Translations under genes and position numbers: made by a program
In this document: positions 6,261 through 38,924 of the stretch, piece by piece
Numbering within the stretch: position 1 is the first letter of the stretch
Layout: every line of letters begins with the position of its first letter
Assembly: GCA_024403825.1 (NCBI GenBank)
Contig: JAKSRB010000006.1
Span: forward strand, 1-47,773
Source of the DNA: Ruminococcus sp.
GTDB lineage: Bacteria; Bacillota; Clostridia; Oscillospirales; Acutalibacteraceae
Reading direction: 5' to 3'
DNA length: 47,773 nt
The notes under the pieces: model-generated
Database searches by the model: none
Told to the model about the DNA's origin: nothing
What the model saw: only the letters and a program-made list of their open reading frames with translations

Positions 6261-6289
6261 TTGACTTTATGTAAATTTTGTGTTATTGT
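6261..6289 (+). promoter_or_regulatory. Putative promoter of the dockerin membrane protein gene
   Basis: TTGACT at 6261-6266 and TATTGT at 6284-6289, 17 bases apart. Transcription would begin near 6296, so the open frame upstream of that point cannot be translated from this promoter. Confidence 0.5.
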
Positions 6290-6338
6290 AAAACAGAGTA
6301 TATTAGGATATTATGCCTTATTATACCCAAAAATAATA

Positions 6339-7673
6339 ATGAAAGGGGGTGTAGCTACGCTCACCGTAAAATTGAAACGATTTTTAGTTGGAGTTACGGT
6401 TGCTCTAACTGTTGCAAGCTCAATGCCTGCTCAGGCAGTATCCTTTAAAATTGATAAGGATACGCTTGATAGCATAGCTTCAGCAGATACTAAAATAAAT
6501 CGTTATCGCTATGGTGATGTAAATGATGACGGAAAAATAGATGTCTATGATGTTACTGAAATGCAAAAAGCTATAGTTGAGCTTACTCAATTTAATGCTT
6601 TGCAAAATGAGCTGTCTGATGTAGATGGTGATGGAAGATTTTCTGTTTCCGATATAACCGTAATGCAGGGTTATCTTACAAGAGTAGAAGAATTTATGCA
6701 TTACAGAGTTGGAAAAAGCTACACCCCTGAACCTGAGCCGTCCACAGTTCAGCCGAGTTCATCAGGAACAATTCCGACAACTACAAATCCGTTTGAAACG
6801 ATTGAGACTATAACAACAGAGCCTACTACTGAACCTATAGAATCTCATTCTACAATAATAGTGCCAACAACCGAGCCGATTGAAACAACAAGCAGACCTC
6901 ATACTACGGGTGCAACAATAGTAACTGAACCTAAGGAATCAACTACAGCTTATGTTTCACAGCCGACTCAGCCCTCAACGAGGTATCCGTCATTTACAGT
7001 ACCGACAGAAACCGCAGCTAAGGATACTTACAGCGTAACGAAGCCTATGAGCTTTACAGCTGTTACAGATCCACCTGAAAAAACTACTGCACCAACCGCA
7101 AACAGTACAAATTCAACAAGCAATACCTCAGACAATCAGCAAACAACATCTACGACTGCTCGTCCTGCTACAGATGATGAGGCACATAGTGAAACAACTA
7201 CAGAAACACAGGCAACAGCTTCTGGTTATGTAGTCACTACTGCACCTTCATCTCCTGCCACTCCTGATGTTGCTCCTCCGGTTTCAAATACAACAGATCA
7301 TACTGTGCTTATAACAATAATTGTTGTTATACTATTAGTTTTGATAATAGCTTTATTCACAGTAAGAAATCTTGTGGGACTTTTCCAGCGTTCGTATGAG
7401 CGACGACGAATTGAGATTTTAGTTCGTAATAATGTTAAAAATTCTGAATATGATGATTTATGTGATATTCGTGAATGTATGCTTGATGGAGAATTTCCAT
7501 TTAATGAGGATAAGGTATGCTTGAGATGTCAGTCTATTATCAACAGACTGCAAAGAGCAGAAATTGTAACATCAAAAGAACTTGAAGTTATTATGCTTTC
7601 TAACTATGATTTACAACATTACTATAATAATTATATGGCAATTAAAAATCATAGTGTTGAATTTTTGGTATAA
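6339..7673 (+). CDS. Membrane-anchored protein with N-terminal dockerin domain
   Basis: About 444 residues from ATG 6339. A signal peptide ending near PAQA precedes a dockerin type I module with two calcium-binding repeats (DVNDDGKIDVYDVTEMQKAI and DVDGDGRFSVSDITVMQGYL). A long Thr/Ser/Pro-rich linker (about 215 residues) leads to one membrane segment (TVLITIIVVILLVLIIALF), followed by a basic stop-transfer patch and a cytoplasmic domain of about 95 residues with a Cys-x-x-Cys-like CLRC motif. Dockerins bind cohesins, so this could dock a cohesin-bearing protein to the membrane and report inward. The start is uncertain: GAAAGGGGGTG lies downstream of ATG 6339, and the only later in-frame start is TTG 6372, 22 bases beyond it. 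Confidence 0.8.
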   Translation: MKGGVATLTVKLKRFLVGVTVALTVASSMPAQAVSFKIDKDTLDSIASADTKINRYRYGDVNDDGKIDVYDVTEMQKAIVELTQFNALQNELSDVDGDGRFSVSDITVMQGYLTRVEEFMHYRVGKSYTPEPEPSTVQPSSSGTIPTTTNPFETIETITTEPTTEPIESHSTIIVPTTEPIETTSRPHTTGATIVTEPKESTTAYVSQPTQPSTRYPSFTVPTETAAKDTYSVTKPMSFTAVTDPPEKTTAPTANSTNSTSNTSDNQQTTSTTARPATDDEAHSETTTETQATASGYVVTTAPSSPATPDVAPPVSNTTDHTVLITIIVVILLVLIIALFTVRNLVGLFQRSYERRRIEILVRNNVKNSEYDDLCDIRECMLDGEFPFNEDKVCLRCQSIINRLQRAEIVTSKELEVIMLSNYDLQHYYNNYMAIKNHSVEFLV

Positions 7674-7691: not shown

Positions 7692-7723
7692 AAAATAGCC
7701 GTTGTAAATGCAGCGGCTATTTT
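7692..7723 (+). terminator. Terminator after the dockerin protein gene
   Basis: A 13-bp stem with one G-T pair (7692-7704 with 7711-7723), a 6-base loop and a T-rich tail. Confidence 0.8.
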
Positions 7724-7991
7724 AATTTTAAATAAAATGTTGCAAAAATGTAATAATTTTATTAAGTGATTTTATTAAAAAGAATTATAAATAGTTATAT
7801 AAAGTCTAATGATTGGCATTTATTACTGCTTTTGAAAAAGTGATAAATTAGCTGTAAATATTTTAAAAATTTAACTGTCAAATTGTATTAACTATAGTCG
7901 AACAATTTAAAATTAGGTACTTGACTTATTTGCATAATGTATTATAATATAAATAATAATCGAATTATAATGTATTTTGAGAGGTGTAACA
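7724..7991 (+). other. AT-rich intergenic leader before the dlt-like operon
   Basis: Beyond the terminator this stretch holds no open frame with a ribosome site. The only clear element is the promoter near its 3' end; I saw no convincing riboswitch or strong hairpin. Confidence 0.5.
7921..7948 (+). promoter_or_regulatory. Promoter of the dlt-like operon
   Basis: TTGACT at 7921-7926 and a consensus TATAAT at 7943-7948, 16 bases apart. The leader to the first start codon is about 37 bases. It is the only good promoter I see for the five-gene operon. Confidence 0.7.
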
Positions 7992-9497
7992 ATGCAGACA
8001 TCTGTTCTTAATTGGTTGGATAATACTGCTTCAGCATATGCTGATAAGGTGATGTTTACTGATTCTAACAGTACTATTACTTTTGCAGAATTCAATAAAT
8101 TAACTATATCCGTCTGTTCATTTTTAGCTTCTAAATCAAATCCTTATTCCCCTGTTGTAGTTATGTCAGGCAGACATATTTATACATCTGCCTGTTATCT
8201 TGGTGCAGTAAGGGCTGGTTGTTTTTATGCTCCTATGGATGCTACTATGCCTGTTTCAAGATTAAATCAGATTCTTGGTGTTATTAAGTCTGATAATATG
8301 ATTGTTGACAGAGAGCATCTTGAAATTGCTAAAAGTCTTGACTTTAATGGAAATGTTTATGTAATGGAGGATATAATTGATTTTCCTGTAGATAATATAT
8401 TGCTTGATAAAGCAGTCAGTAATCTGAATGAAACATCTCCGTTATATGTAATATTTACTTCCGGTTCAACAGGAGTACCTAAGGGTGTTATTACTTCTCA
8501 TCACTCCTTAATGTGCTATATTGATGCTGTAAGTAAGGTTTTAGATATTAACGATTCTGATGTTATGGGAAATCAATCACCACTCGACTATATTGCCGCT
8601 GTTCGTGATATTTATTTTCCAATCAAAATTGGTGCATCTACAGTCATTATACCGAAAAATGAATTTTCAATGCCAACAGAGCTTTTTGAAACCTTAAATA
8701 AAAATAAGGTTACTGCTTTGTGCTGGAGTGTTGCAGGTGTTGAATTGCCTGCAAAGCTTGGTGCTTTTGATATAATTAAGCCTGAGTATCTTAAAAAGCT
8801 TTGTTTTTCAGGTTCAGTTATGCCTTGTAAATATCTTAAAATCTGGCAAGAGGCTTTGCCTGATGTGCTATATGTGAATCAGTATGGTCCAACTGAGGCA
8901 ACAGCATCCTGCACTTATTATGTAGTTGAGGAAAAGGTTAATGATGATACTGTTTTGCCGATTGGTAAGCCTTATGAAAACTACACTATAACCTTGCTTA
9001 ATGATGACTCAACTGCAACAGCTGAAGGAGAAATTGGTGAAATTTGCGTAAGCGGACCAATACTCGCACTTGGCTATTATGGTGATGTTGAGAGAACAGC
9101 TCAGTCATTTATGCAAAATCCGCTTAATAGAAATTATCGTGAATTGATTTATAAAACAGGTGACCTTGGCAAATGGAATGAGCAGGGGATACTTGAATTT
9201 CATGGTAGAAAAGACAGACAGATTAAGCATATGGGACATCGTATTGAGCTTGGCGAAATAGAAGAAACAGCAAAGCAGATTACAGGTATAACTGATTGTT
9301 GTTCCTTATATTATAAGGATAAAGAGCATTTGTATTTGTTTTATGTAGGCGATGCAACTTCAAAAGAAATAGTTTTGCATTTCAGAAAAGTACTGCCGGC
9401 ATTTATGGTACCAAGAAAGATTATTAATCTTGACAAGCTGCCAACTTTGCCAAACGGTAAAACTGATATGCAGACTTTAAAAACATATTTTAAATAA
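7992..9497 (+). CDS. DltA-like amino acid adenylating enzyme
   Basis: A 501-residue stand-alone adenylation-domain enzyme, predicted to activate an amino acid with ATP and load it onto the carrier protein encoded next. Core motifs: A3 P-loop TSGSTGVPKG (156-165), A5 NQYGPTEAT (296-304), A7/A8 YKTGDLGKW and GRKDRQIKHMGHRIELGEIE, and the C-terminal catalytic lysine in LPNGKTD. An aspartate (about 199, in SPLDYIAA) sits where DltA has its amino-group-binding Asp, so an alpha-amino acid is the likely substrate. It resembles D-alanine--D-alanyl carrier protein ligase, but the pocket cannot be decoded by eye, so D-Ala is not assured. GAGGTG precedes ATG 7992; a TTG at 7977 is rejected because it lies ahead of that site. 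Confidence 0.88.
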   Translation: MQTSVLNWLDNTASAYADKVMFTDSNSTITFAEFNKLTISVCSFLASKSNPYSPVVVMSGRHIYTSACYLGAVRAGCFYAPMDATMPVSRLNQILGVIKSDNMIVDREHLEIAKSLDFNGNVYVMEDIIDFPVDNILLDKAVSNLNETSPLYVIFTSGSTGVPKGVITSHHSLMCYIDAVSKVLDINDSDVMGNQSPLDYIAAVRDIYFPIKIGASTVIIPKNEFSMPTELFETLNKNKVTALCWSVAGVELPAKLGAFDIIKPEYLKKLCFSGSVMPCKYLKIWQEALPDVLYVNQYGPTEATASCTYYVVEEKVNDDTVLPIGKPYENYTITLLNDDSTATAEGEIGEICVSGPILALGYYGDVERTAQSFMQNPLNRNYRELIYKTGDLGKWNEQGILEFHGRKDRQIKHMGHRIELGEIEETAKQITGITDCCSLYYKDKEHLYLFYVGDATSKEIVLHFRKVLPAFMVPRKIINLDKLPTLPNGKTDMQTLKTYFK

Positions 9498-9523
9498 TTT
9501 TAATAAAGAAAGAGGATTTTAAA

Positions 9524-9751
9524 ATGGATGAATTAATGCAGATTCTTGAGGAATTAAGACCGGATGTTGACTTTGAAAATGAAACAGCACTTATTGGTGA
9601 TGGTATTTTAGATTCATTTGATATTGTAGCCCTTGTTGGTGAACTCAATGATGCTTTTGATATTGAAATCAAGCCAAATAATCTTGTACCTGAAAACTTC
9701 AATTCAGCAAAAGCTATGATGGCTCTTATTGAGCAGTTACAGGATGAATAA
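9524..9751 (+). CDS. DltC-like acyl/aminoacyl carrier protein
   Basis: A 75-residue acidic carrier protein. The phosphopantetheine attachment motif is GDGILDSFDIVAL with Ser31, and the LDSF form plus FDIEIKPNNL are close to DltC rather than to fatty-acid ACP (DSLD). It would carry the aminoacyl thioester made by the upstream enzyme. The gene starts 26 bases after the adenylase with AAGAAAGAGGA as its ribosome site, and the PLP enzyme starts 8 bases after its stop, so expression is tightly linked. Confidence 0.9.
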   Translation: MDELMQILEELRPDVDFENETALIGDGILDSFDIVALVGELNDAFDIEIKPNNLVPENFNSAKAMMALIEQLQDE

Positions 9752-9759
9752 GGTGCATT

Positions 9760-10941
9760 ATGAATGAAATCTTGATAAAAGAACTTTCTTCAAAGGTTGC
9801 AACACCGTCATATGTTTTTGATTTGGATGTATTTCAGAAAAGAGCTGAATTTGTAAAGGAACAGTTTGGCGATAAAATCGGTCTTTGCTTTTCAATTAAA
9901 GCAAATCCGTTTTTACTCGGCAGATTACCTGAATGTTTTGATAAAATAGAGGTTTGCTCTCCTGGTGAGCTTACTATTTGTGAAAAAACAAATTCAGATA
10001 TGAAAAAAGTAATTTTTTCAGGTGTAAATAAAACCTATGCAGATGTTGAGCGTGCAATGGCTGATGGTGTTGGTACATTTACTGCTGAAAGCTATTTGCA
10101 TTTGGATTTAATAAATTCTATTGCTGAAAAGAATAATGTTATTGCACCTGTTCTTGTTCGCTTAACAGGCGGTAGCCAGTTTGGTATGGATGAGAAGGAT
10201 GTTCTTTCCATAATTGAAAATCGTGCAAAATATTCTAATATTGAAATTGTAGGAATACATTACTTTACAGGAACTCAGAAGCGTAAGGCGGCTCTTATAA
10301 TTAAGGAGCTTGATTACCTTACTGAGGTTATCGAGAAAGTGAAAAATGACTATAATTTTATTGTAAAAAGGATTGAGTATGGTACAGGTCTTGCTGTTGA
10401 TTACTTTAATTCTGAGGCAGATACACTTGAAGAAGAACGCCTGAAGGCAGTTGCTCCACGATTAAGAGAGCTTGCTGAGATAGCAGATGTTACCGTTGAG
10501 ATGGGCAGATTTTTTGCAGCTCCTTGCGGATACTATTTAACAAAGGTTATGGATGTTAAAACTAACTGTGGAGTAAATTATGCAATTCTTGATGGTGGTT
10601 TAAATCAGATAAAATATGATGGACAGATTAAGGGTATGCAGATACCAAAAATCGTTCAAATAAGTAATAACGAAAAATCATCAGAAAAAGAACCTGAGCC
10701 TTGGACATTGTGCGGCAGCCTTTGTACTACTGAGGATGTTCTGGTGAGAAATGTTGAATTTAGTTCACTTCAAATAGGCGATATTCTTGTATTTTGCAGA
10801 ACAGGTGCATACTCGGTAATGGAGGGAATGGCAGTATTTCTCAGCAGAGAAATGCCTGAAGTTTCTGTATATTCTGAGAAAATTGGTTTAATCAAGCTTA
10901 GAGATTTGTATTATACCGATGTTCTTAATACACCGAAATAA
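9760..10941 (+). CDS. PLP-dependent fold-III decarboxylase (DapDC/ODC/BtrK-like) in a dlt-like operon
   Basis: A 393-residue member of the alanine-racemase-fold decarboxylase family (LysA, ODC, BtrK). The PLP lysine is K47 (FSIKANP); the ring-stacking histidine is H167 (GIHYFTGTQ, usually HIGSQ); a glycine-rich phosphate loop lies at YGTGLAVDY; EMGR (247-250) and the C-terminal C322 with Y351 (CGSLCTTEDV, RTGAYS) are retained. The usual CESxD reads CTTED, so the substrate pocket differs from true DAP decarboxylase. BtrK of butirosin biosynthesis is a relative that decarboxylates glutamyl bound to a carrier protein, giving a precedent for action on the adjacent carrier. Alternatives are supply of a free amino acid such as lysine, or racemisation. 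It is 8 bases after the carrier gene. Confidence 0.85.
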   Translation: MNEILIKELSSKVATPSYVFDLDVFQKRAEFVKEQFGDKIGLCFSIKANPFLLGRLPECFDKIEVCSPGELTICEKTNSDMKKVIFSGVNKTYADVERAMADGVGTFTAESYLHLDLINSIAEKNNVIAPVLVRLTGGSQFGMDEKDVLSIIENRAKYSNIEIVGIHYFTGTQKRKAALIIKELDYLTEVIEKVKNDYNFIVKRIEYGTGLAVDYFNSEADTLEEERLKAVAPRLRELAEIADVTVEMGRFFAAPCGYYLTKVMDVKTNCGVNYAILDGGLNQIKYDGQIKGMQIPKIVQISNNEKSSEKEPEPWTLCGSLCTTEDVLVRNVEFSSLQIGDILVFCRTGAYSVMEGMAVFLSREMPEVSVYSEKIGLIKLRDLYYTDVLNTPK

Positions 10942-10959
10942 TTATGCGGAGAGATTAGC

Positions 10960-12582
10960 TTGACTTATACATCGTTAAATTTTATTATATTTTTATGTGT
11001 ATCTGTACTTGTATATTTTTTATTTCCATTAAAAAAGTATAGATGGACTGTCTTACTTGCAGCAAGTTACTTTTTTTACCTTTTTATCGGCTATAAATAT
11101 GTAGCGTTTATACTTTTTACAACAATTAGTACATATCTGATTGCACGCTGGCTTAATAGTATATCGGTTAAATCCAAAAAAACTATTAAGGCACACAAGC
11201 AGGATTGGGATAAGGATACTAAAAAGAAATATAAAAACAATATCAAAATCAAAAAAAGACTTGTTATGGCACTTGATTTGGTATTGAATTTTGGTATTCT
11301 TGCATTTTTGAAATACTACAATTTCTTTGCAGGTAGCATTAATGATTTATTAAATGGATTTGGAGCAGATGTTTCTGTGCCTGCTCTTGGATTGGTTTTA
11401 CCTTTGGGTATATCATTCTACACATTCCAGTCAATGGGTTATATTGTAGATGTTTACAGAGAAAAAACTGAGGCTGAGAAAAATCCGTTTAAATTTGCTT
11501 TGTTTGTATCATTTTTTCCTCAGATTGTGCAAGGTCCTATCAGTATATATGACCAACTGGCACATCAGTTATATGAGCCACACAGCTTTGATTTTACAAG
11601 ATTTAAGTATGGTGTTGAGCTTATAATCTGGGGTTTCTTTAAGAAGCTTGTTATTGCAGACAGAGCAGTTATAGCTATTAATGCAGTTACAGATAATTAC
11701 AACATATATAGCGGTACTACCTTGACTTTCACAATACTTTTGTATGCATTACAGCTGTATGCAGACTTTTCAGGTGGTATTGATATATCCAGAGGTGTAG
11801 CTCAAATATTCGGTATTGATATGATGGAGAACTTCCGTCGTCCTTACTTCTCTAAGGATATTAACGAATATTGGCGTAGATGGCATATTTCGCTTGGTGG
11901 ATGGTTTAAAAATTACCTTTTCTATCCGGTTGCAATGTCAGAGCTTTTTATCAATACAAGTAAGAAAATGAAAAATTCTCGCTTTGGTAAAACTAAGGCA
12001 GGTGCTCATATAGCTAAGGTATTTCCAACAAGTGTTGCATCATTTTTGGTGTTCTTTATAGTTGGTATATGGCATGGTGCAAGCTGGAAATATGTAGGTT
12101 TTGGCTTGTGGAATGGCGGAATTATTATGCTTTCCGTTTTAATGAAACCTGTTTTTGAATGGACTATAGCTAAGCTACATATTAATGCTAAGTCAGCATT
12201 ATATACATTGTTCCAGATTTTAAGAACATTCTTAGTTGTGCTTGTAGGATATGTATTTGATGTTGCACCTTCATTTATGCAGGCAATGCATACTTTCAAA
12301 GCATTTTTTGTTAGTCAGAGTTTTTCAGCAGGTTGGTCTGAAATAAGCGAACTTGGTCTTGGTAAAAAAGATTATCTTGTTATTTTGGGCGGAGCTTTCC
12401 TGATTTTTGTAATTAGTGTAATTCAGGAAAGAAACAGCAAAACAACTATAAGAGAAATGCTTGACAGGAAACCTTTTATATTAAAATGGCTGGTATTATT
12501 TGTAGGTATTATGACTATTATTATATTTGGTATATATGGTTCAGGTTACAATGCAGCAGATTTTGTATATATGCAGTTTTAG
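10960..12582 (+). CDS. MBOAT-family acyltransferase (DltB/AlgI-like)
   Basis: A 540-residue polytopic membrane O-acyltransferase of the MBOAT superfamily. It has about a dozen hydrophobic segments, the FFPQIVQGPI motif near residue 185, YWRRWHISLGGWFKNYLFYP (304-323, with H309), and the invariant active-site histidine H372 in GIWHGASWK. DltB homologues pass an acyl group from the carrier protein through the membrane onto a surface polymer, which fits the order of this operon. Translation starts at TTG 10960 with GCGGAGAG about 7 bases upstream. The loop at about 70-100 is unusually lysine-rich, probably cytoplasmic. Confidence 0.92.
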   Translation: MTYTSLNFIIFLCVSVLVYFLFPLKKYRWTVLLAASYFFYLFIGYKYVAFILFTTISTYLIARWLNSISVKSKKTIKAHKQDWDKDTKKKYKNNIKIKKRLVMALDLVLNFGILAFLKYYNFFAGSINDLLNGFGADVSVPALGLVLPLGISFYTFQSMGYIVDVYREKTEAEKNPFKFALFVSFFPQIVQGPISIYDQLAHQLYEPHSFDFTRFKYGVELIIWGFFKKLVIADRAVIAINAVTDNYNIYSGTTLTFTILLYALQLYADFSGGIDISRGVAQIFGIDMMENFRRPYFSKDINEYWRRWHISLGGWFKNYLFYPVAMSELFINTSKKMKNSRFGKTKAGAHIAKVFPTSVASFLVFFIVGIWHGASWKYVGFGLWNGGIIMLSVLMKPVFEWTIAKLHINAKSALYTLFQILRTFLVVLVGYVFDVAPSFMQAMHTFKAFFVSQSFSAGWSEISELGLGKKDYLVILGGAFLIFVISVIQERNSKTTIREMLDRKPFILKWLVLFVGIMTIIIFGIYGSGYNAADFVYMQF

Positions 12583-12594
12583 GGAGCAGATTGA

Positions 12595-13758
12595 ATGAGT
12601 AAAAGAAAACTTTATTTTAAGCGTACAATAAAAATTGCATCATTAATTCTTGCTATAGCATTAGTTACAGCCTTTTGTCAACAATATCTGCTTTGCCATT
12701 TTGATTATAATAAGTTATTAATGAATGGATTTTATCTTGAAGATAAAAATTCTTTAGATGTTGTCTTAATAGGTGCAAGTGAAACTTATACTGATTTTTC
12801 ACCTGACCTTGCATATGAAGAATATGGATTTACCAGTTACCCTGTGGCAACAGGTGCGGCACCTGTTTCATTAATAAAAACTCAGTTAAAAGAGGTTTTA
12901 AGAACTCAATCACCTAAATTGATTGTTATTGAAATTAATGGTGTTTTGTACAGAGGTAAGGATTCTTTAACTAAAGAGTCTAATCTAAGAAAATCGCTCG
13001 ATAATATGCCATTGAACGCAAATAAGATTGAGTATATAAAAAATCATGTTGCAATAAGTGACCAATTTGAATATTATTTGCCTATTACAAAGTATCATTC
13101 TGTATGGAATGATTATCCAGAACCTTTGAAATATGTAAAAGGTTTGTTTGCTCAAAATTTCAGAGGTTATACTTATTTAAAAGGTGTAAGAACTCAGGGT
13201 AATGTTTATGATACCAAGCAAGTCAAAATGCTTAATGCTACATTGCCTAAAGATGAGAATCGAGAAAACCTTGAGGAAACTTCTGAAGCAGATTTCAGGG
13301 ATTTACTGCAATACATAAAAGATGAAAAATTAGATAATATAATTTTTATGAGATTACCTCATATTGTAGCAAAATCTGAGAATTATGGCAGATATAAGCG
13401 TTGTAATACTGCTGGGGATATAATTTCTGAGTATGGTTTTGATTTCTATAATTTTGAAAGATATAATGATGATATTGGAATAGATTTCACAAAGGATTAC
13501 TATAATGTTGACCATATGAATGTTGAGGGTCAGCAGAAGATGACTCGTTATCTATCAGAATTATTTGTAAATAAGTACGGTATAACACCAACAGAGCTTA
13601 CTGAAAAGCAGAAAGAAAAATGGGATACTTGTGCAGATTACTACCATAAATATGTTGAGTATGTAAAATATGTTGCTAAGAAAGATCCTAAAGCAAAGGA
13701 AGTTGGTGAGGATGGTAACACCCTTGTCAAAATAGCGAAGCTTTCTAAGAGTAAGTAA
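12595..13758 (+). CDS. SGNH-hydrolase-like (DltD/AlgJ-type) protein
   Basis: A 387-residue protein with an uncleaved N-terminal membrane segment (about 12-32) and an extracytoplasmic alpha/beta domain. The nucleophile block is VVLIGASETYTDFSP (Ser62) and the C-terminal Asp/His pair lies in VDHMNVEGQQ (D306, H307), the arrangement seen in DltD and in AlgJ-type O-acyltransferases. It would complete acyl transfer to the polymer outside the membrane. It starts 12 bases after the MBOAT gene with GGGAGCAG as ribosome site, and a strong terminator follows, closing the operon. The lysine-rich C-terminal tail (about 65 residues) after the catalytic pair is not part of the usual fold. Confidence 0.85.
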   Translation: MSKRKLYFKRTIKIASLILAIALVTAFCQQYLLCHFDYNKLLMNGFYLEDKNSLDVVLIGASETYTDFSPDLAYEEYGFTSYPVATGAAPVSLIKTQLKEVLRTQSPKLIVIEINGVLYRGKDSLTKESNLRKSLDNMPLNANKIEYIKNHVAISDQFEYYLPITKYHSVWNDYPEPLKYVKGLFAQNFRGYTYLKGVRTQGNVYDTKQVKMLNATLPKDENRENLEETSEADFRDLLQYIKDEKLDNIIFMRLPHIVAKSENYGRYKRCNTAGDIISEYGFDFYNFERYNDDIGIDFTKDYYNVDHMNVEGQQKMTRYLSELFVNKYGITPTELTEKQKEKWDTCADYYHKYVEYVKYVAKKDPKAKEVGEDGNTLVKIAKLSKSK

Positions 13759-13765
13759 TAGTTAT

Positions 13766-13802
13766 AAAAAACAGGCATTGCACTTTGCAATACCTGTTTT
13801 TT
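13766..13802 (+). terminator. Terminator closing the dlt-like operon
   Basis: A 10-bp outer stem (13766-13775 with 13793-13802), one mismatch and a 5-bp inner stem. The A-run and T-run flanks make it bidirectional, also serving the convergent DUF308 gene. Confidence 0.85.
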
Positions 13803-13816
13803 GGTTATAAGATATT

Positions 13817-14419
13817 TTAATCTTTGTCATATGCCTCAACTTCAATCATACCGTTATCATTGTATTTAACAGAATTATATTTTTTTGAATGATAACCGAC
13901 AAGTCCAGTAATTGAAAGTCCTGAGATGCCTTCATAAATCAATAATGCACCAAGCAATATTATAATAAAATTTGCAAAAAATTTACTAAATACTATTGTG
14001 CAGATACCAAGTGAAATAACTGCGATTGACAATATAAGATAAACCCACCAATATTTCATACCAAACATTTTAAGGGCTAATGCGTGCTTAATATCAAGCG
14101 TACTATCAATTATAATGACTATACCAATAATAAAGAATAAGATTTCTCTTATTGAATCAGGTGAAATCAGTGAAAAGATACCAAACGATGTAGCAAGTAC
14201 ACCAGCTATCATTTCAAATATAAAACTATTTTTCCTATTTATAAAGAACAGTATAATATTAAACAATCCATAAATTGTCAATGCAGTTCCTAAGGTATAG
14301 CAAAGAGCCACAGTAATTGAGTTAGGGGAAACTATCATCACTATACCGAGGACAAGGCAAGCAAGAGAAGATACTACTGATGAAGTAAAAGAGCTTTTTT
14401 GTTTGCGTTTATTTTTCAT
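13817..14419 (-). CDS. DUF308 (HdeD-like) membrane protein
   Basis: A 200-residue membrane protein with six hydrophobic segments organised as repeated pairs, as in the DUF308/HdeD family (LGIVMIVSPNSITVALCYTLG, then FGIFSLISPDSIREILFFII). The function in Firmicutes is unknown; HdeD of E. coli is linked to acid resistance. Start ATG 14419 is chosen because TTGAGG, which contains the pyrB stop codon, lies 8-9 bases upstream; the longer TTG start at 14431 would overlap pyrB. It follows pyrB on the same strand and is probably co-transcribed with it. Confidence 0.75.
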   Translation of the reverse strand: MKNKRKQKSSFTSSVVSSLACLVLGIVMIVSPNSITVALCYTLGTALTIYGLFNIILFFINRKNSFIFEMIAGVLATSFGIFSLISPDSIREILFFIIGIVIIIDSTLDIKHALALKMFGMKYWWVYLILSIAVISLGICTIVFSKFFANFIIILLGALLIYEGISGLSITGLVGYHSKKYNSVKYNDNGMIEVEAYDKD

Positions 14420-14427
14420 ATTAAACC

Positions 14428-15495
14428 TCAATCAATTCTTTTATCGCAGAAATCACACATAATCATACCTTTTTTCTCATAGCTGAGTTTTGGCAGATAT
14501 GGTTCACTCTGAGTAATACATTTTGAATTGTTACATTTATGTTCGCTTATGATTGTGGTTCGTTCTGAAATTGTGAATTCATCGTCCTGTAAAAGCATAA
14601 GAATTAATGCCATTCTACCGAACATTCCATATTGAGCCTGTTTAAAATATAACGCCCTTGGGTCATCATCAATATCAACGGTAATTTCATTGACACGAGG
14701 TAGGGGATGAAGAATAATCATATCATCTTTTGCTTTATCAAGCTTTTCTTTGTCAAGCACAAAAACATTTTTCTGTGCTTCATAATCAGCTTCGCTTGAA
14801 AAGCGTTCTCGTTGTATTCTTGTCATATAGAGCATATCAAGGTCAACTATTGCATCTGCAAGTGAATTTGAAAATTCATATTTGCAACCGTTTTTCTCAA
14901 GAATATCAATGATATATAATGGAACACTTAATTCTTTTGTCGAAATTAAAACAAAGCTGTTATTTTCATATTTTGCAAGTGTTTTGATTAATGAATGAAC
15001 TGTTCTGCCGTTAAGTAAATCTCCGCATACACCAATTTTGAGATTATCAAGTCTGCCTTTCTCAATACTTAAGGTTACAATATCAGTAAGAGTTTGAGTT
15101 GGATGAAGATGACCACCGTCACCGCAGTTAATCACAGGTACATCAGAATATAAAGATGATGCCATTGCAGTGCCTTCCACAGGATGCCTGATAGCAATAA
15201 TATCAGAATAACCGCTTACTATGGTTATGGTATCCTTAAGATTTTCACCCTTAGAAACAGATGAATTCATTGGATTATCAAAACCAATAGTTCTTCCACC
15301 AAGCTTAAGCATTGCAGTTTGAAAAGACATTTGGGTACGAGTGCTTGGTTCATAAAAAAGCGTTGCAAGAATTTTACCATCACAAGCATGCCTATAGTCA
15401 GCAGGACTTTGCATAATCTTTTTAGCCTTTTTAATAATTTTGTCAATTTGCTGAGGAGTCATAGCCTCAAGGTCAATTAAATTTTTATTTGTCAT
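14428..15495 (-). CDS. pyrB: Aspartate carbamoyltransferase with C-terminal PyrI-type zinc domain
   Basis: A 355-residue PyrB, which condenses carbamoyl phosphate with aspartate in pyrimidine synthesis. The catalytic chain covers about residues 1-308: STRT (51-54), SKGENLKD (K82), HPTQTLTD (131-138) and HPLPR (263-267). Beyond it lies an extra domain of about 45 residues, CNNSKCITQSEP...CDFC, whose four cysteines (321, 326, 347, 350) match the C-x4-C / C-x2-C zinc site at the end of the regulatory chain PyrI. The allosteric nucleotide-binding half of PyrI is missing. In E. coli the zinc domain makes the contact with PyrB, so here it may stabilise the trimer or an oligomer without CTP/ATP control. 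Carbamoyl phosphate would come from carAB 18 kb away. Confidence 0.93.
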   Translation of the reverse strand: MTNKNLIDLEAMTPQQIDKIIKKAKKIMQSPADYRHACDGKILATLFYEPSTRTQMSFQTAMLKLGGRTIGFDNPMNSSVSKGENLKDTITIVSGYSDIIAIRHPVEGTAMASSLYSDVPVINCGDGGHLHPTQTLTDIVTLSIEKGRLDNLKIGVCGDLLNGRTVHSLIKTLAKYENNSFVLISTKELSVPLYIIDILEKNGCKYEFSNSLADAIVDLDMLYMTRIQRERFSSEADYEAQKNVFVLDKEKLDKAKDDMIILHPLPRVNEITVDIDDDPRALYFKQAQYGMFGRMALILMLLQDDEFTISERTTIISEHKCNNSKCITQSEPYLPKLSYEKKGMIMCDFCDKRID

Positions 15496-34868: not shown

Positions 34869-37800
34869 ATGCCACTCAAAAAGAATATAAAAAGAGTTAT
34901 GGTAATCGGTTCAGGTCCGATTGTTATCGGTCAGGCTGCCGAATTTGACTATGCAGGCACACAGGCTTGCAGAGCCTTAAAGGAAGAGGGACTTGAGGTT
35001 ATTCTTGTCAATTCAAATCCTGCCACAATTATGACAGATAATGCAATGGCAGATAAGATTTATATTGAACCTCTTACTCTTGAAACCGTTAAAAGAATTA
35101 TCAAAAAGGAACGCCCTGACAGCCTGCTTTCAACACTTGGAGGACAGACAGGACTTACACTTTCAATGCAGCTTGCAAAGGAAGGCTTCCTTGATAAATA
35201 CAATGTACAGCTTCTCGGTGCAAACCCTGAAACTATTGACAAGGCTGAGGACAGACAGCTTTTTAAGGATACAATGCTTGAAATCGGTCAGCCTGTTATA
35301 CCTTCACTTGTTGTAAATGATGTAGAAACTGCTGTAAAATTTGCTGATGAAATCGGTTATCCTGTTATCATCCGACCTGCATTTACACTTGGCGGTACAG
35401 GCGGTGGTATTGTAAATAATGAGATTGAGCTTAGAGAAATTACCTCAAACGGTCTTGAGCTTTCTCCAATTACTCAGGTACTTGTTGAAAAATGTATTTC
35501 TGGTTGGAAAGAGGTTGAATATGAGGTAATGCGTGACAGCGAGGGCAATGTTATTACAGTTTGCTCTATGGAAAACTTTGACCCTGTTGGTGTTCATACA
35601 GGTGATTCAATCGTAATTGCTCCTACTGTTACTCTTGCTGATAAGGAATATCAGATGCTCAGAAGTGCGGCTCTTGATATTATATCTGCTCTCAAGGTTG
35701 AGGGTGGCTGTAACTGTCAGTTTGCACTTAATCCTGAAACCTTTGAATATGCAGTTATTGAGGTTAATCCTCGTGTATCTCGTTCATCTGCACTTGCTTC
35801 AAAGGCTACCGGTTATCCTATTGCTAAGGTTGCCGCTAAAATTGCAATAGGTTATACTCTTAATGAAATTAAAAATGCCGTTACAGGTACTACATATGCA
35901 TGCTTTGAACCTGCCTTAGACTATGTTGTAGTTAAATTTCCAAAATGGCCTTTTGATAAATTTGTATATGCTAAGCGTGACCTCGGTACTCAGATGAAGG
36001 CTACCGGTGAGGTTATGGCTATTGCTCCTACCTTTGAGCAGGCTATTATGAAAGCTGTTCGTGGTGCAGAAATTTCTCATAATACTCTTGATGATAAGGA
36101 ATTTAAGTCAATGTCAAATGCTTCTGTTTGTGACAGATTAAGCGTTTGTGATGACAGAAGAATTTTCTGTGTTTATGAGGCTCTTAAAAGAGGTATTTCT
36201 GTTGACCGTATTCATGAAATTACATTGATTGATGAATGGTTCCTTGAAAAACTGCTCAATCTTATTAAGATTGAAAATGAACTTGCTGAAGGTCAGCTTA
36301 CAGAAGAGCTTTATGTTCGTGCTAAGAATATGGGCTATCTTGATAAGACCATTGAAGAGATTACAGGTCAGAAGGTTGAAAATCCACTTGTTCCTGTTTA
36401 TAAAATGGTTGATACCTGTGCCGCTGAGTTTGATGCTCAGACACCTTATTTTTACTCAACCTTTGACAAGGAAAATGAGGCTGAGTTATTTATAAATTCA
36501 CATAAAACAGATAAAAAGACAGTAATCGTATTTGGCTCAGGTCCTATAAGAATTGGTCAGGGTATCGAATTTGACTATGCATCAGTACATTGCGTATGGG
36601 CTTTGAAAAAGGCTGGATATGATGTTGTTATTGTAAATAACAACCCTGAAACTGTTTCTACTGACTTTGATACAGCCGACAGACTTTATTTTGAACCACT
36701 CACAACAGAAGATGTTATGGGCATTATCAAAACTGAAAAGCCGTTTGGTGTAGTTGTGGCATTTGGTGGTCAGACTGCTATTAAGCTTACAAAGTTTATG
36801 AGCGATAATGGCGTTAATATTCTTGGTACCTCATACGATGCTATTGATATGGCTGAAGACAGAGAGCGTTTTGATGAATTGCTTGAAAAATATCAGATTA
36901 AGCGTCCTCGTGGTGTTACAGTAATGACAACTGAAGAGGCACTTGATGTTGCAGATAAGATTGGTTATCCTGTACTTCTCAGACCTTCATATGTTCTTGG
37001 CGGTCAGAATATGATTATTGCTTTCAACGAGGCTGATGTTAAGGAATATATGGCAATTATTCTTGCTCAGAATATTGAAAATCCAATTCTTATTGATAAA
37101 TATTTACAGGGTACAGAAATTGAGGTTGACGCAATTTGTGATGGCGAGGATATTCTTATCCCTGGTATTATGGAGCATATTGAGCGTGCAGGTGTACACT
37201 CAGGTGACTCAATCGCTGTTTATCCTGCGTGGAATCTCTCTGACGAAATGACTCAGACAATTATTGAAAGCTCCAAAAATCTTGCTATTGAGCTTCACAC
37301 AAAGGGTCTTGTAAATATTCAGTATCTTATTTACAAGGACGAGCTTTATGTTATCGAAGTAAATCCTCGTTCTTCAAGAACTATTCCATATATCAGTAAG
37401 GTTACAGGTGTTCCTATGGTTGACCTTGCTACAAGAGCAATGCTCGGTGAAAAGCTTAAGGATATGGGATATGGCACAGGTCTTTACAGAAAAAGTCCTT
37501 ATATTGCTGTTAAAGTTCCTGTATTCAGCTTTGAGAAGCTTATCAATGTTGATAACCACCTCGGACCTGAAATGAAATCAACAGGTGAGGTTCTCGGTAT
37601 TGCAGGTACTCTTGAAGAGGCACTTTATAAGGGTCTTATCGGTGCAGGCTATAAGATGAAAAAGCAGGGCGGTGTATTTATTACTGTCCGTAATTCTGAT
37701 AAGGCTGAAATCGGTGAAATTGCCAAGAAATATTTTGACCTCGGATTTACTCTCTATGCTACTGAGGGTACAGCAGCTGTCCTTGAAAAGTATGGTATTG

Positions 37801-38924
37801 ATGCGGTAGCTGTTAAGAAAATACATGAGAGCAAGACAGATAATACATTAACTCTTATTGAGTCTGGTAAAATTCAGTATGTAATTTCAACCTCTGCAAA
37901 GGGCAGAATCCCATCAAGAGATTCTGTAAAAATCCGCCGTAAGACAGTTGAAAGGAATATTCCTTGTCTTACATCACTTGATACAGCCAATGCTCTTGCT
38001 GATTGCTTAAAGAGTCATTATACTCAGCATAGTACAGAGCTGATTGATATAAACAATATGAGGGAGGAAAAGCTGATGCTTAACTTTACAAAGATGCAGG
38101 GTATAGGCAATGACTATATTTATTGCAGTACATTTGATCAGGAAATCAATAATCCTGAGGCACTTGCAGTAAGACTTTCTGACAGACATTTTGGAATCGG
38201 TGGTGACGGTATAATTCTTGTATGTCCGTCTGAGGTAGCAGATGCTAAAATGAAGATGTACAATCTTGATGGTTCAGAGGGTAAAATGTGTGGTAATGGT
38301 ATTCGTTGCGTTGGTAAATTCCTCTATGACCATGGTATGATTGATGTAAATGAAAAAGATGAAATTACTATAGAAACTCTCAGTGGAATCAAGAGCCTGA
38401 AGGCTTACACAACAAATGGTGAGGTAACTCGTTTAAGAGTTGATATGGGTAAGGCTATTCTCAATCCTGCTGAAATTCCTGTTGATATTAAGGGCAAGGA
38501 TAAGGTAGTTAATGAGCCTGTTAAGATTGACGGAAAAGACTTTAATATTTCCTGTGTATCAATGGGTAATCCGCATTGCGTAGTATTTATGGATGATATT
38601 GATAGCCTTGAAATCGAGAAAATCGGTCCAAAGTTTGAATTTGCCCCACTTTTCCCAGATAGAGTAAATACTGAATTTGTAACAGTTCTTGATGAACATA
38701 CAATTAAAATGAGAGTTTGGGAACGAGGCTCAGGCGAAACATGGGCTTGTGGTACAGGTGCTTGTGCAGTTGCAGTTGCGGCTTGTGAAAATGGTTTCTG
38801 TAAGAAGGGCGAAGATATTAAGATTAAGCTTAAAGGCGGAGATCTTATCATCAATTACACAGATGAAACCGTTTATATGACAGGTAATGCTGAAAAAGTA
38901 TTTGAAGGACAAGTTGAGGTGTAA
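34869..38924 (+). CDS. carB: Carbamoyl-phosphate synthase large subunit fused in frame to diaminopimelate epimerase
   Basis: A continuous frame of 1351 residues. Residues 1 to about 1064 are CarB with two ATP-grasp halves (VMVIGSGPIVIGQAAEFDYA at the start and VIVFGSGPIRIGQGIEFDYA near 554), the oligomerisation region between them, and a C-terminal MGS-like domain (about 930-1055). CarB proteins normally stop near here, and the end TELIDINNMR looks like a native C-terminus. The frame then runs through REEKL without a stop into a complete DapF (1070-1351: NFTKMQGIGNDYIYC, MCGNGIRC, CGTGACA). A Shine-Dalgarno GGGAGGAAA (38062-38070) and ATG 38076 inside the frame would allow separate dapF translation. 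One base change (GAG to TAG after MR) would restore a carB stop. Confidence 0.9.
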   Translation: MPLKKNIKRVMVIGSGPIVIGQAAEFDYAGTQACRALKEEGLEVILVNSNPATIMTDNAMADKIYIEPLTLETVKRIIKKERPDSLLSTLGGQTGLTLSMQLAKEGFLDKYNVQLLGANPETIDKAEDRQLFKDTMLEIGQPVIPSLVVNDVETAVKFADEIGYPVIIRPAFTLGGTGGGIVNNEIELREITSNGLELSPITQVLVEKCISGWKEVEYEVMRDSEGNVITVCSMENFDPVGVHTGDSIVIAPTVTLADKEYQMLRSAALDIISALKVEGGCNCQFALNPETFEYAVIEVNPRVSRSSALASKATGYPIAKVAAKIAIGYTLNEIKNAVTGTTYACFEPALDYVVVKFPKWPFDKFVYAKRDLGTQMKATGEVMAIAPTFEQAIMKAVRGAEISHNTLDDKEFKSMSNASVCDRLSVCDDRRIFCVYEALKRGISVDRIHEITLIDEWFLEKLLNLIKIENELAEGQLTEELYVRAKNMGYLDKTIEEITGQKVENPLVPVYKMVDTCAAEFDAQTPYFYSTFDKENEAELFINSHKTDKKTVIVFGSGPIRIGQGIEFDYASVHCVWALKKAGYDVVIVNNNPETVSTDFDTADRLYFEPLTTEDVMGIIKTEKPFGVVVAFGGQTAIKLTKFMSDNGVNILGTSYDAIDMAEDRERFDELLEKYQIKRPRGVTVMTTEEALDVADKIGYPVLLRPSYVLGGQNMIIAFNEADVKEYMAIILAQNIENPILIDKYLQGTEIEVDAICDGEDILIPGIMEHIERAGVHSGDSIAVYPAWNLSDEMTQTIIESSKNLAIELHTKGLVNIQYLIYKDELYVIEVNPRSSRTIPYISKVTGVPMVDLATRAMLGEKLKDMGYGTGLYRKSPYIAVKVPVFSFEKLINVDNHLGPEMKSTGEVLGIAGTLEEALYKGLIGAGYKMKKQGGVFITVRNSDKAEIGEIAKKYFDLGFTLYATEGTAAVLEKYGIDAVAVKKIHESKTDNTLTLIESGKIQYVISTSAKGRIPSRDSVKIRRKTVERNIPCLTSLDTANALADCLKSHYTQHSTELIDINNMREEKLMLNFTKMQGIGNDYIYCSTFDQEINNPEALAVRLSDRHFGIGGDGIILVCPSEVADAKMKMYNLDGSEGKMCGNGIRCVGKFLYDHGMIDVNEKDEITIETLSGIKSLKAYTTNGEVTRLRVDMGKAILNPAEIPVDIKGKDKVVNEPVKIDGKDFNISCVSMGNPHCVVFMDDIDSLEIEKIGPKFEFAPLFPDRVNTEFVTVLDEHTIKMRVWERGSGETWACGTGACAVAVAACENGFCKKGEDIKIKLKGGDLIINYTDETVYMTGNAEKVFEGQVEV
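38062..38070 (+). promoter_or_regulatory. Internal ribosome binding site for dapF within carB frame
   Basis: GGGAGGAAA ends five bases before ATG 38076 in the junction between the CarB and DapF parts. It is as good as any ribosome site in the window and decides that dapF can be translated on its own. Confidence 0.75.
38076..38924 (+). CDS. dapF: Diaminopimelate epimerase (internal start, same frame as carB)
   Basis: A 282-residue DapF of normal length if translated from ATG 38076. It interconverts LL- and meso-diaminopimelate without cofactor, using two cysteines. Both are present: the MCGNGIRC motif and the GETWACGTGACAVA motif. The family signatures FTKMQGIGNDYIY, GGDGIIL and SMGNPHCVVF are intact, so the enzyme should be active whether free or as the C-terminal part of the CarB fusion. 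Its stop is three bases before the pyrG start. dapL lies about 1.7 kb downstream, so the last DAP steps are linked to the pyrimidine genes. Confidence 0.9.
   Translation: MLNFTKMQGIGNDYIYCSTFDQEINNPEALAVRLSDRHFGIGGDGIILVCPSEVADAKMKMYNLDGSEGKMCGNGIRCVGKFLYDHGMIDVNEKDEITIETLSGIKSLKAYTTNGEVTRLRVDMGKAILNPAEIPVDIKGKDKVVNEPVKIDGKDFNISCVSMGNPHCVVFMDDIDSLEIEKIGPKFEFAPLFPDRVNTEFVTVLDEHTIKMRVWERGSGETWACGTGACAVAVAACENGFCKKGEDIKIKLKGGDLIINYTDETVYMTGNAEKVFEGQVEV

Follow-up and report, generated by a model that had tools for sequence, protein, structure and literature searches.

A dlt-like five-gene operon with a fold-III decarboxylase in Ruminococcus sp., and its possible role in decorating a cell-envelope polymer

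Introduction

D-alanylation is the best-known means by which Gram-positive bacteria tune their surface charge against cationic peptides, and the Dlt system (DltXABCD) comprises an adenylase, a carrier protein, an acyltransferase of the MBOAT family and an exoprotein. Here we describe a stretch of 47,773 nucleotides (hereafter, the window), contig JAKSRB010000006.1 of the Ruminococcus sp. assembly GCA_024403825.1. The genome spans 1.97 Mb and is split into 139 contigs, the window being C96. Its plus strand carries a five-gene operon that shares these four components with the Dlt system and adds a pyridoxal 5′-phosphate (PLP) fold-III decarboxylase. The five-gene set resembles a parallel to the D-alanine decoration system in which the additional enzyme probably trims the amino acid on the carrier.

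Comparison with described systems

The nearest solved relatives of the operon's MBOAT were DltB structures (8jem, 1e-20; 6bug, 1.2e-20). Besides the decarboxylase, the operon differs from Dlt in its adenylase, which belongs to a separate clade and has another pocket, and in its shuttle motif, which is carried by its own MBOAT of 540 amino acids instead of the motif-free DltB of 381–395 amino acids seen in ten canonical operons; a DltX gene has no room within the operon, where the gaps are 8–26 bases (the rest of the genome was not searched for DltX). By curated models the operon falls outside the Dlt families: the adenylase scored 236 bits against the DltA model TIGR01734 (cut-off 559.85), the carrier 20.9 and 34 bits against the DltC models TIGR01688 (cut-off 52.35) and NF003464 (cut-off 68), and the MBOAT 126.5 bits against the DltB model TIGR04091 (cut-off 375). 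A canonical dlt operon with an inserted gene was rejected on these scores and on the position of the adenylase outside the DltA clade; the label "DltA-like" in a preliminary description of this DNA holds as a resemblance but not as membership. We infer that the operon functions in the manner of Dlt, with the amino acid remodelled on its carrier.

Two biosynthetic pathways offer precedents for such remodelling. The butirosin pair BtrI/BtrK, like the operon, combines a small carrier with a fold-III decarboxylase, and the operon enzyme has the same letters at Gln140, Thr172 and Thr323. It differs in belonging to another clade, in a missing loop, in an A-domain loader (the butirosin loader, BtrJ, is an ATP-grasp enzyme) and in a product that would pass to an MBOAT. 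On-carrier decarboxylation by BtrK is described in the available part of PMC7857480. In the vicenistatin system VinN/VinL/VinO, according to the available part of PMC11284099, an A domain loads a dicarboxylic amino acid that is then decarboxylated on the carrier by a PLP enzyme. There the product is a polyketide starter and not a decoration of a surface polymer, and the operon's adenylase lacks the shortened A5 loop and has Ile at position 235.

Two further systems share a part of the set. PatA/PatB and AlgI-type MBOAT–SGNH acylation systems also rely on an MBOAT ending in FxYxxF and a partner exoprotein, but are described as acyl-CoA fed and carrier-less in the available part of PMC12148441, whereas the acyl group of the operon would come from its adenylase and carrier. 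The exosortase-A pair TIGR03098/TIGR03099 likewise joins an AMP ligase to a fold-III decarboxylase, but the operon proteins fall far under the cut-offs (174.8 against 592.35 bits and 185.2 against 478.45 bits, TIGR03099 being the best NCBIfam match of the decarboxylase; an exosortase was not searched for). In the open-access literature searched (titles and abstract starts of the listed matches) neither such an operon nor a combination of DltA, pyridoxal, decarboxylase and MBOAT was found, and no title among the matches listed treated wall esters of R. bromii.

Organization of the operon

The five-gene operon was confirmed as real. Its open reading frames (ORFs) follow one another in the order given below with gaps of 26, 8, 18 and 12 bases, as the preliminary description had it, and the residues named there (Ser31, HYFTGTQ and CTTED) are all present.

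7921..7948, plus strand: possible promoter, TTGACT-N16-TATAAT, 11/12 consensus positions matched
7992..9497, plus strand: adenylase (A domain), 501 amino acids; PF00501 at 6.7e-53; TIGR01733 at 295.2 bits, narrowly missing the cut-off of 317.4
9524..9751, plus strand: carrier protein, 75 amino acids; phosphopantetheine Ser31 in DSFD; PF00550 at 21.2 bits (cut-off 20.8)
9760..10941, plus strand: PLP fold-III decarboxylase, 393 amino acids; PF02784 (Orn_Arg_deC_N) and PF00278 (Orn_DAP_Arg_deC); Lys47, HYFTGTQ at 167–173, CTTED at 322–326
10960..12582, plus strand: MBOAT acyltransferase, 540 amino acids, TTG start; PF03062 at 47.9 bits (cut-off 27); WHG at 371–373; C-terminal FVYMQF
12595..13758, plus strand: putative SGNH transferase (exoprotein), 387 amino acids; N-terminal hydrophobic stretch; Ser62 in GAS, His307 in DYYNVDH
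13765..13803, plus strand: intrinsic terminator hairpin with T-run, −17.8 kcal/mol, z −5.4; near the end of a convergent gene (13817–14431)

One promoter and one terminator had been proposed for the operon. The terminator hairpin is supported by its folding energy (z −5.4) and is absent from the list of a stricter terminator scan. The promoter is merely plausible, since promoter-like sites in this AT-rich window (48) are no commoner than in shuffled sequences (41.5, sd 7.7). A terminator-like site at 7692–7723 lies downstream of the gene preceding the operon.

Conservation and distribution of the gene set

The decarboxylase (E ≤ 1e-60) and an alignment of the adenylase (E ≤ 1e-200) were used to search 148 related genomes, with limits placed at gaps in the lists of matches. 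The decarboxylase was found in 49 of them (47 of the 90 same-genus genomes, own included), and an adenylase of the operon type in 50, namely the same 49 and genome G030; six further adenylases, at 1e-192 to 1e-154, were of a kind without a decarboxylase. Two in-frame stops break the adenylase of G030, and among ORFs of at least 65 amino acids neither a carrier nor a decarboxylase nor an MBOAT was found next to it. This locus (L177, on G030:C30) is a decayed copy of the operon, with the adenylase in two pieces and an exoprotein remnant of 216 amino acids, and G030 is a case of coupled decay.

In a scan of public genomes, which partly overlap the 148 relatives, the best 80 of 468 confirmed stretches were inspected for the five genes. 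All five stood together in 62 of these 80 decarboxylase loci: 59 were contiguous (five with a terminal gene truncated where the contig stops, two with the adenylase in two frames), and in three the fifth gene lay upstream, split between two frames in L122. A further 12 loci were cut by contig ends. The remaining six deviated: L108 had no adenylase within 5 kb, L126 only the decarboxylase, L128 no fifth gene, and L121, L130 and L131 neither MBOAT nor fifth gene, although just 1.35 kb is visible past the decarboxylase in L130. The Ser motif was kept in 78/79 carriers. Ruminococcus bromii YE282 (L057), which has all five genes, is a close relative, its decarboxylase being 70% and its adenylase 77% identical to those of the window.

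With the genes lettered A (adenylase), B (carrier), C (decarboxylase), D (MBOAT) and E (exoprotein), four orders occur across families, that of the window being A-B-C-D-E. The other three belong to a diverged form (class II), whose decarboxylase is 35–45% identical and which occurs in three genomes of the same genus as well as in other families:

A-C-B-D-E, class II: L033–L036, L038, L142, L143, L155–L158
C-B-A-D-E, class II: L146, L147
D-E-A-C-B, class II: L145

Among 391 genomes sampled across the class, the decarboxylase was present in 14 (own included) at E ≤ 1e-100; adenylase and decarboxylase were clustered in 14/14 and the full set was found in 12, the exceptions being G475, truncated where its contig stops, and G281 (L144), without a nearby MBOAT. 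The 398 genomes sampled across the phylum gave four matches at E ≤ 1e-80, one of them new (G560, A-C-B-D followed by a 376-amino-acid neighbour). Relatives of the decarboxylase in 105 plasmid records were all below 60% identity, the top-ranked row at 30.5%.

Since the same gene set recurs across many genomes and in other orders, the arrangement is beyond chance. Constant content in rearranged order points to function rather than inherited neighbourhood. The five genes are a conserved module. Co-occurrence in other genomes had been suggested as a check and a lack of conserved gene order in relatives as ground for abandoning the idea; the set was found conserved, both in the 62 loci and in the shared 49 genomes.

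Genes for histidine kinases lie at or near the class II loci L143, L145 (one gene away) and L155 (where a response regulator was also seen), which resembles dlt settings. Genome G022 has both a set lacking the decarboxylase (L165) and a separate adenylase–carrier–decarboxylase set without an adjoining MBOAT (L049).

Identity of the decarboxylase

Against the lysA model TIGR01048 (cut-off 297.9), the operon decarboxylase scored 181.5 bits and a separate LysA, encoded on another contig of the same genome, 482.7 bits; the genome also encodes a carboxynorspermidine decarboxylase (LysA and this enzyme are L047 and L190). In a tree of 50 rows, three clades were seen: the 20 operon enzymes (100/100), whose stem is long (1.44), 14 LysA-type rows (100/100), and BtrK with seven relatives (99/96), the tree not resolving the branching order among clades. 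Two of the LysA-type rows (L047 and L182) were scored with the lysA model, and the candidates L159 and L198, which fell elsewhere, were excluded. The earlier claim that this is not a plain diaminopimelate (DAP) decarboxylase agrees with the scores, the separate clade and the motif changes given below; a position firmly within LysA in a genome lacking another lysA had been named as evidence to the contrary, and the enzyme lies in its own clade in a genome with a separate LysA. The proposed kinship with BtrK stands in so far as BtrK was the nearest PDB relative (3.6e-35), by single sequence and by profile, but does not extend to a place inside the BtrK clade.

Residues at the active site also separate the groups. 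Gln140 and Thr172 were present in 20/20 operon enzymes, and position 323 was Thr (16) or Ser (4); at the same columns the BtrK clade had Gln (8/8), Thr (7/8) and Thr (8/8), and the LysA-type rows Lys, Ser and Glu (14/14). The window enzyme, with Gln140, Thr172 and Thr323, reads as most rows of the BtrK clade do. In LysA, a Cys-Glu motif binds the distal amine of DAP; the 20 operon enzymes have Cys-Thr (16) or Cys-Ser (4) in its place. Glu206, Lys174 and Glu355 were found only in the operon enzymes when compared with the 22 BtrK-clade and LysA-type rows. The loop before QFG (Arg134 to Gln140) has five residues in 20/20 operon enzymes, against 19–21 in 22/22 rows of the two other groups and 19 in 6knh; in another alignment, the class I rows L039, L042 and L046 have three extra residues in it. 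Loss of this loop near the active site would be expected for a substrate presented on a phosphopantetheine arm.

The adenylase and its substrate pocket

In a tree of 33 rows, the operon adenylases and six decarboxylase-free ones formed one clade (100/100), apart from 12/12 DltA-type rows (100/100), which were taken as DltA by their TIGR01734 E-value, only three class genomes passing the cut-off of that model. The A4 motif of the window adenylase, DYIAAVRD (residues 199–206), aligns with GrsA so as to place Asp199 at 233, Ile at 235 and Arg205 at 239, the numbers 233–239 being our own mapping by alignment and the GrsA motif. The available part of PMC11253843 sets out the ten-letter pocket code and what Asp235 and Lys517 do.

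Asp233 with Lys or Arg at 239 was found in 87/87 distinct decarboxylase-linked adenylases (74 from the 80 best loci, fragments over 300 amino acids included, together with the window, L037 and 11 of class II). In 18 other adenylases position 233 was Tyr (6) or Ser (12) and never Asp (0/18), and a basic 239 occurred once (Lys, L168). Class II and DltA have Asp at position 235, where the window class has Ile (76 rows) and the decarboxylase-free adenylases, which carry Tyr at 233, have Ser in five cases and Asp in one; in the window, Ile replaces the Asp235 of the D-alanine pocket and is followed by Ala236.

One acid and one base in the pocket floor would suit an amino-acid head group that sits at a distance from the carboxylate being activated: the pair may hold the α-amino-acid head at the floor of the pocket, so that the side-chain carboxylate would be activated. 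On this reading of the head group the model leans most, and the pocket letters are evidence that the preliminary description did not have. No glutamate mutase E subunit (PF06368) was found in the genome (94.75% complete), which makes 3-methylaspartate somewhat less likely as the substrate; the family was matched in only 1/14 control genomes.

Four-gene sets of adenylase, carrier, MBOAT and exoprotein without a decarboxylase were seen at L163–L166 (same genus) and L168 (another family); the contig of L167 stops right past the adenylase. Such operons were sister to the window class (94/97) and nested among the decarboxylase-linked ones (83/78). The tree thus favours loss of the decarboxylase in these sister operons, perhaps along with the Asp233/basic-239 pair, but the alternative of a single clade of decarboxylase-linked adenylases could not be rejected in the AU test (p 0.208).

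The MBOAT, the exoprotein and the acceptor

A C-terminal FxYxxF motif was present in 65/66 MBOATs with an intact end from the 80 best loci. The one exception (L075, 9207–10841) ends in FVDMQF, with Tyr replaced by Asp, possibly through an assembly error. The first position of the motif was Pro in the class II MBOATs inspected and Ala in some of the decarboxylase-free ones. Acylation of the Tyr of FxYxxF in PatA, and the proposal of the same for other motif-bearing MBOATs, are described in the available part of PMC12148441. Ten canonical dlt operons served as a control: their DltB proteins had the motif at the end in 0/10, and a small ORF beside dltA ending in FVYSQF or FIYNxF was present in 7/10 (L215–L217, L219–L222). 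In L214 an ORF of 57 amino acids ending in FTYSEF lies 3′ of the last dlt gene, and among the ten no small motif ORF was seen in L213 and L218.

Ser62 and His307 were invariant in 17/17 aligned fifth proteins. The window protein had no Pfam or NCBIfam match, and a profile of the 17 found no credible PDB relative. Sub-threshold GDSL-lipase matches were obtained for 6/10 fifth proteins tried, the window protein giving none, and hhalign comparison with 10 DltD-type proteins gave probabilities of 54% (A6) and 3.6% (A8). The earlier "SGNH/DltD-like" label reflects the position and motif of the protein.

The genome encodes a teichoic-type glycerophosphotransferase (PF04464, 279.2 bits) and has no match to PF00884 (LtaS-type) and none to TIGR01734 at E ≤ 1e-100, on which grounds our guess for the acceptor is a wall-teichoic-type polymer. 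A second MBOAT/exoprotein pair (L162, G000:C102:2015-4794), 63% and 40% identical to those of the operon and with an MBOAT ending in FVYMQF, has no adjoining adenylase, carrier or decarboxylase; its neighbours are a GlmS-like gene and two AT3 acyltransferase genes. Similar pairs occur in L169, L171, L178 and L181, some on short contigs. The L162 pair may share the carrier of the operon for another acceptor.

Proposed mechanism and alternatives

With slightly better than even confidence, based on the sequence comparisons above, we propose that the operon, as a counterpart of Dlt, supplies a cell-envelope polymer with an aminoacyl group that it forms by on-carrier decarboxylation and then exports. 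The interpretation given in the preliminary description thus finds partial support. The adenylase would activate a dicarboxylic amino acid (Glu or Asp being likeliest from the pocket letters) by its side-chain carboxylate and load it onto the phosphopantetheine of Ser31. By analogy with BtrK and VinO, the decarboxylase would strip the free α-carboxylate on the carrier, giving an ω-amino acyl thioester such as 4-aminobutyryl or β-alanyl. As PatA and DltX suggest, the MBOAT would carry the acyl group through the membrane to the Tyr in its C-terminal FVYMQF, and the exoprotein would accept it as a Ser ester and transfer it to an envelope polymer, which would gain positive charge.

Several observations weigh against this proposal. 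The tree places the decarboxylase in its own clade rather than with BtrK, and L121, L130, L131 and L144 have adenylase, carrier and decarboxylase with no adjoining MBOAT. The SGNH identity of the fifth protein is not provable and stays putative. Position 233 does not belong to the published ten-position code, and where it sits in the pocket is our deduction. The window class is without the Asp235 that class II keeps, and the two classes may therefore use different substrates. In addition, VinN-type features were not found: position 235 is Ile (Asp in class II), and the hallmark β13–β14 loop, one residue shorter in VinN, was not seen, the A5 stretch having the length of that of DltA in an alignment with DltA and not with VinN.

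The alternative that deserves most attention, although we consider it rather unlikely, is that the substrate of the decarboxylase is a free amino acid (Glu, Asp, a lysine-type amino acid or DAP), the product being loaded by the adenylase and exported by the MBOAT pair. Colocation in an operon would be expected here too, and the PDB matches of the enzyme are named diaminopimelate, lysine/ornithine or arginine decarboxylases, which act on free amino acids. The incednine IdnL3 route, as described in the available part of PMC11284099, likewise makes a free β-amino acid prior to adenylation. A pocket for 4-aminobutyrate or β-alanine should, however, need no basic residue at 239, yet this residue is paired with Asp233 in all 87 decarboxylase-linked adenylases, and the lack of the loop kept by LysA relatives may likewise count against a free substrate.

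We give little credence to a second alternative, loading of DAP by one carboxylate and removal of the other on the carrier, which would yield a lysyl-carrier and a lysylated polymer. The class II pocket, with two acids and one base (Asp233, Asp235, Lys239), would suit two amines and a second carboxylate, and the window enzyme does score 181.5 bits against the lysA model; but Asp235 is missing in the window class, and the Cys-Glu motif of LysA is replaced in all 20 operon enzymes.

Still less probable is the production of a secreted small molecule or lipid-linked group instead of a wall-polymer decoration. It would agree with the lack of an acceptor gene in the operon, with the four loci without an adjoining MBOAT and with the lack of an LtaS-type match in the genome. 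Against it stand the teichoic-type glycerophosphotransferase, the histidine-kinase genes at or near L143, L145 and L155, in a setting like that of dlt operons, and the combination of a shuttle-motif MBOAT with an exoprotein, a known polymer-acylation pair in the available part of PMC12148441. A housekeeping LysA that chanced to lie in a dlt-like operon has family-level similarity in its favour and can practically be dismissed given the separate LysA on another contig, the separate clade, the Cys-Thr or Cys-Ser motif and the co-occurrence with the adenylase.

Other genes in the window

Upstream of the operon, 6261–7673 encodes a type I dockerin protein with a Thr/Ser-rich linker followed by a hydrophobic stretch. 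On the minus strand, 14428–15495 encodes an aspartate carbamoyltransferase catalytic chain with a C-terminal PyrI_C, the metal-binding domain of the regulatory chain. In a single ORF of 1351 amino acids at 34869–38924, a carbamoyl-phosphate synthase large chain is combined with a diaminopimelate epimerase, the latter matched as two DAP_epimerase stretches, a fusion that to our knowledge is unusual.

Significance

In the 391 class genomes, the decarboxylase (14 genomes) and DltA-type adenylases (18 genomes) occurred with similar frequency at E ≤ 1e-100; among the adenylases, the matches of G342 sit in frames of 1208–3612 amino acids and are probably nonribosomal peptide synthetase modules. The two lists had no genome in common. 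We see about an even chance that the operon represents a second family parallel to Dlt, with on-carrier remodelling and an acyl-Tyr-shuttle MBOAT, in which 4-aminobutyryl or β-alanyl esters replace D-alanine in relatives of R. bromii and in other Clostridia. If the proposal is true, the MBOAT would be a carrier-fed one bearing its own shuttle motif, motif-bearing MBOAT systems being described as acyl-CoA fed in the available part of PMC12148441. A charged group other than D-alanine would then be attached to the cell surface, and a new wall-polymer ester would be predicted in rumen and gut Clostridia, the R. bromii group included.

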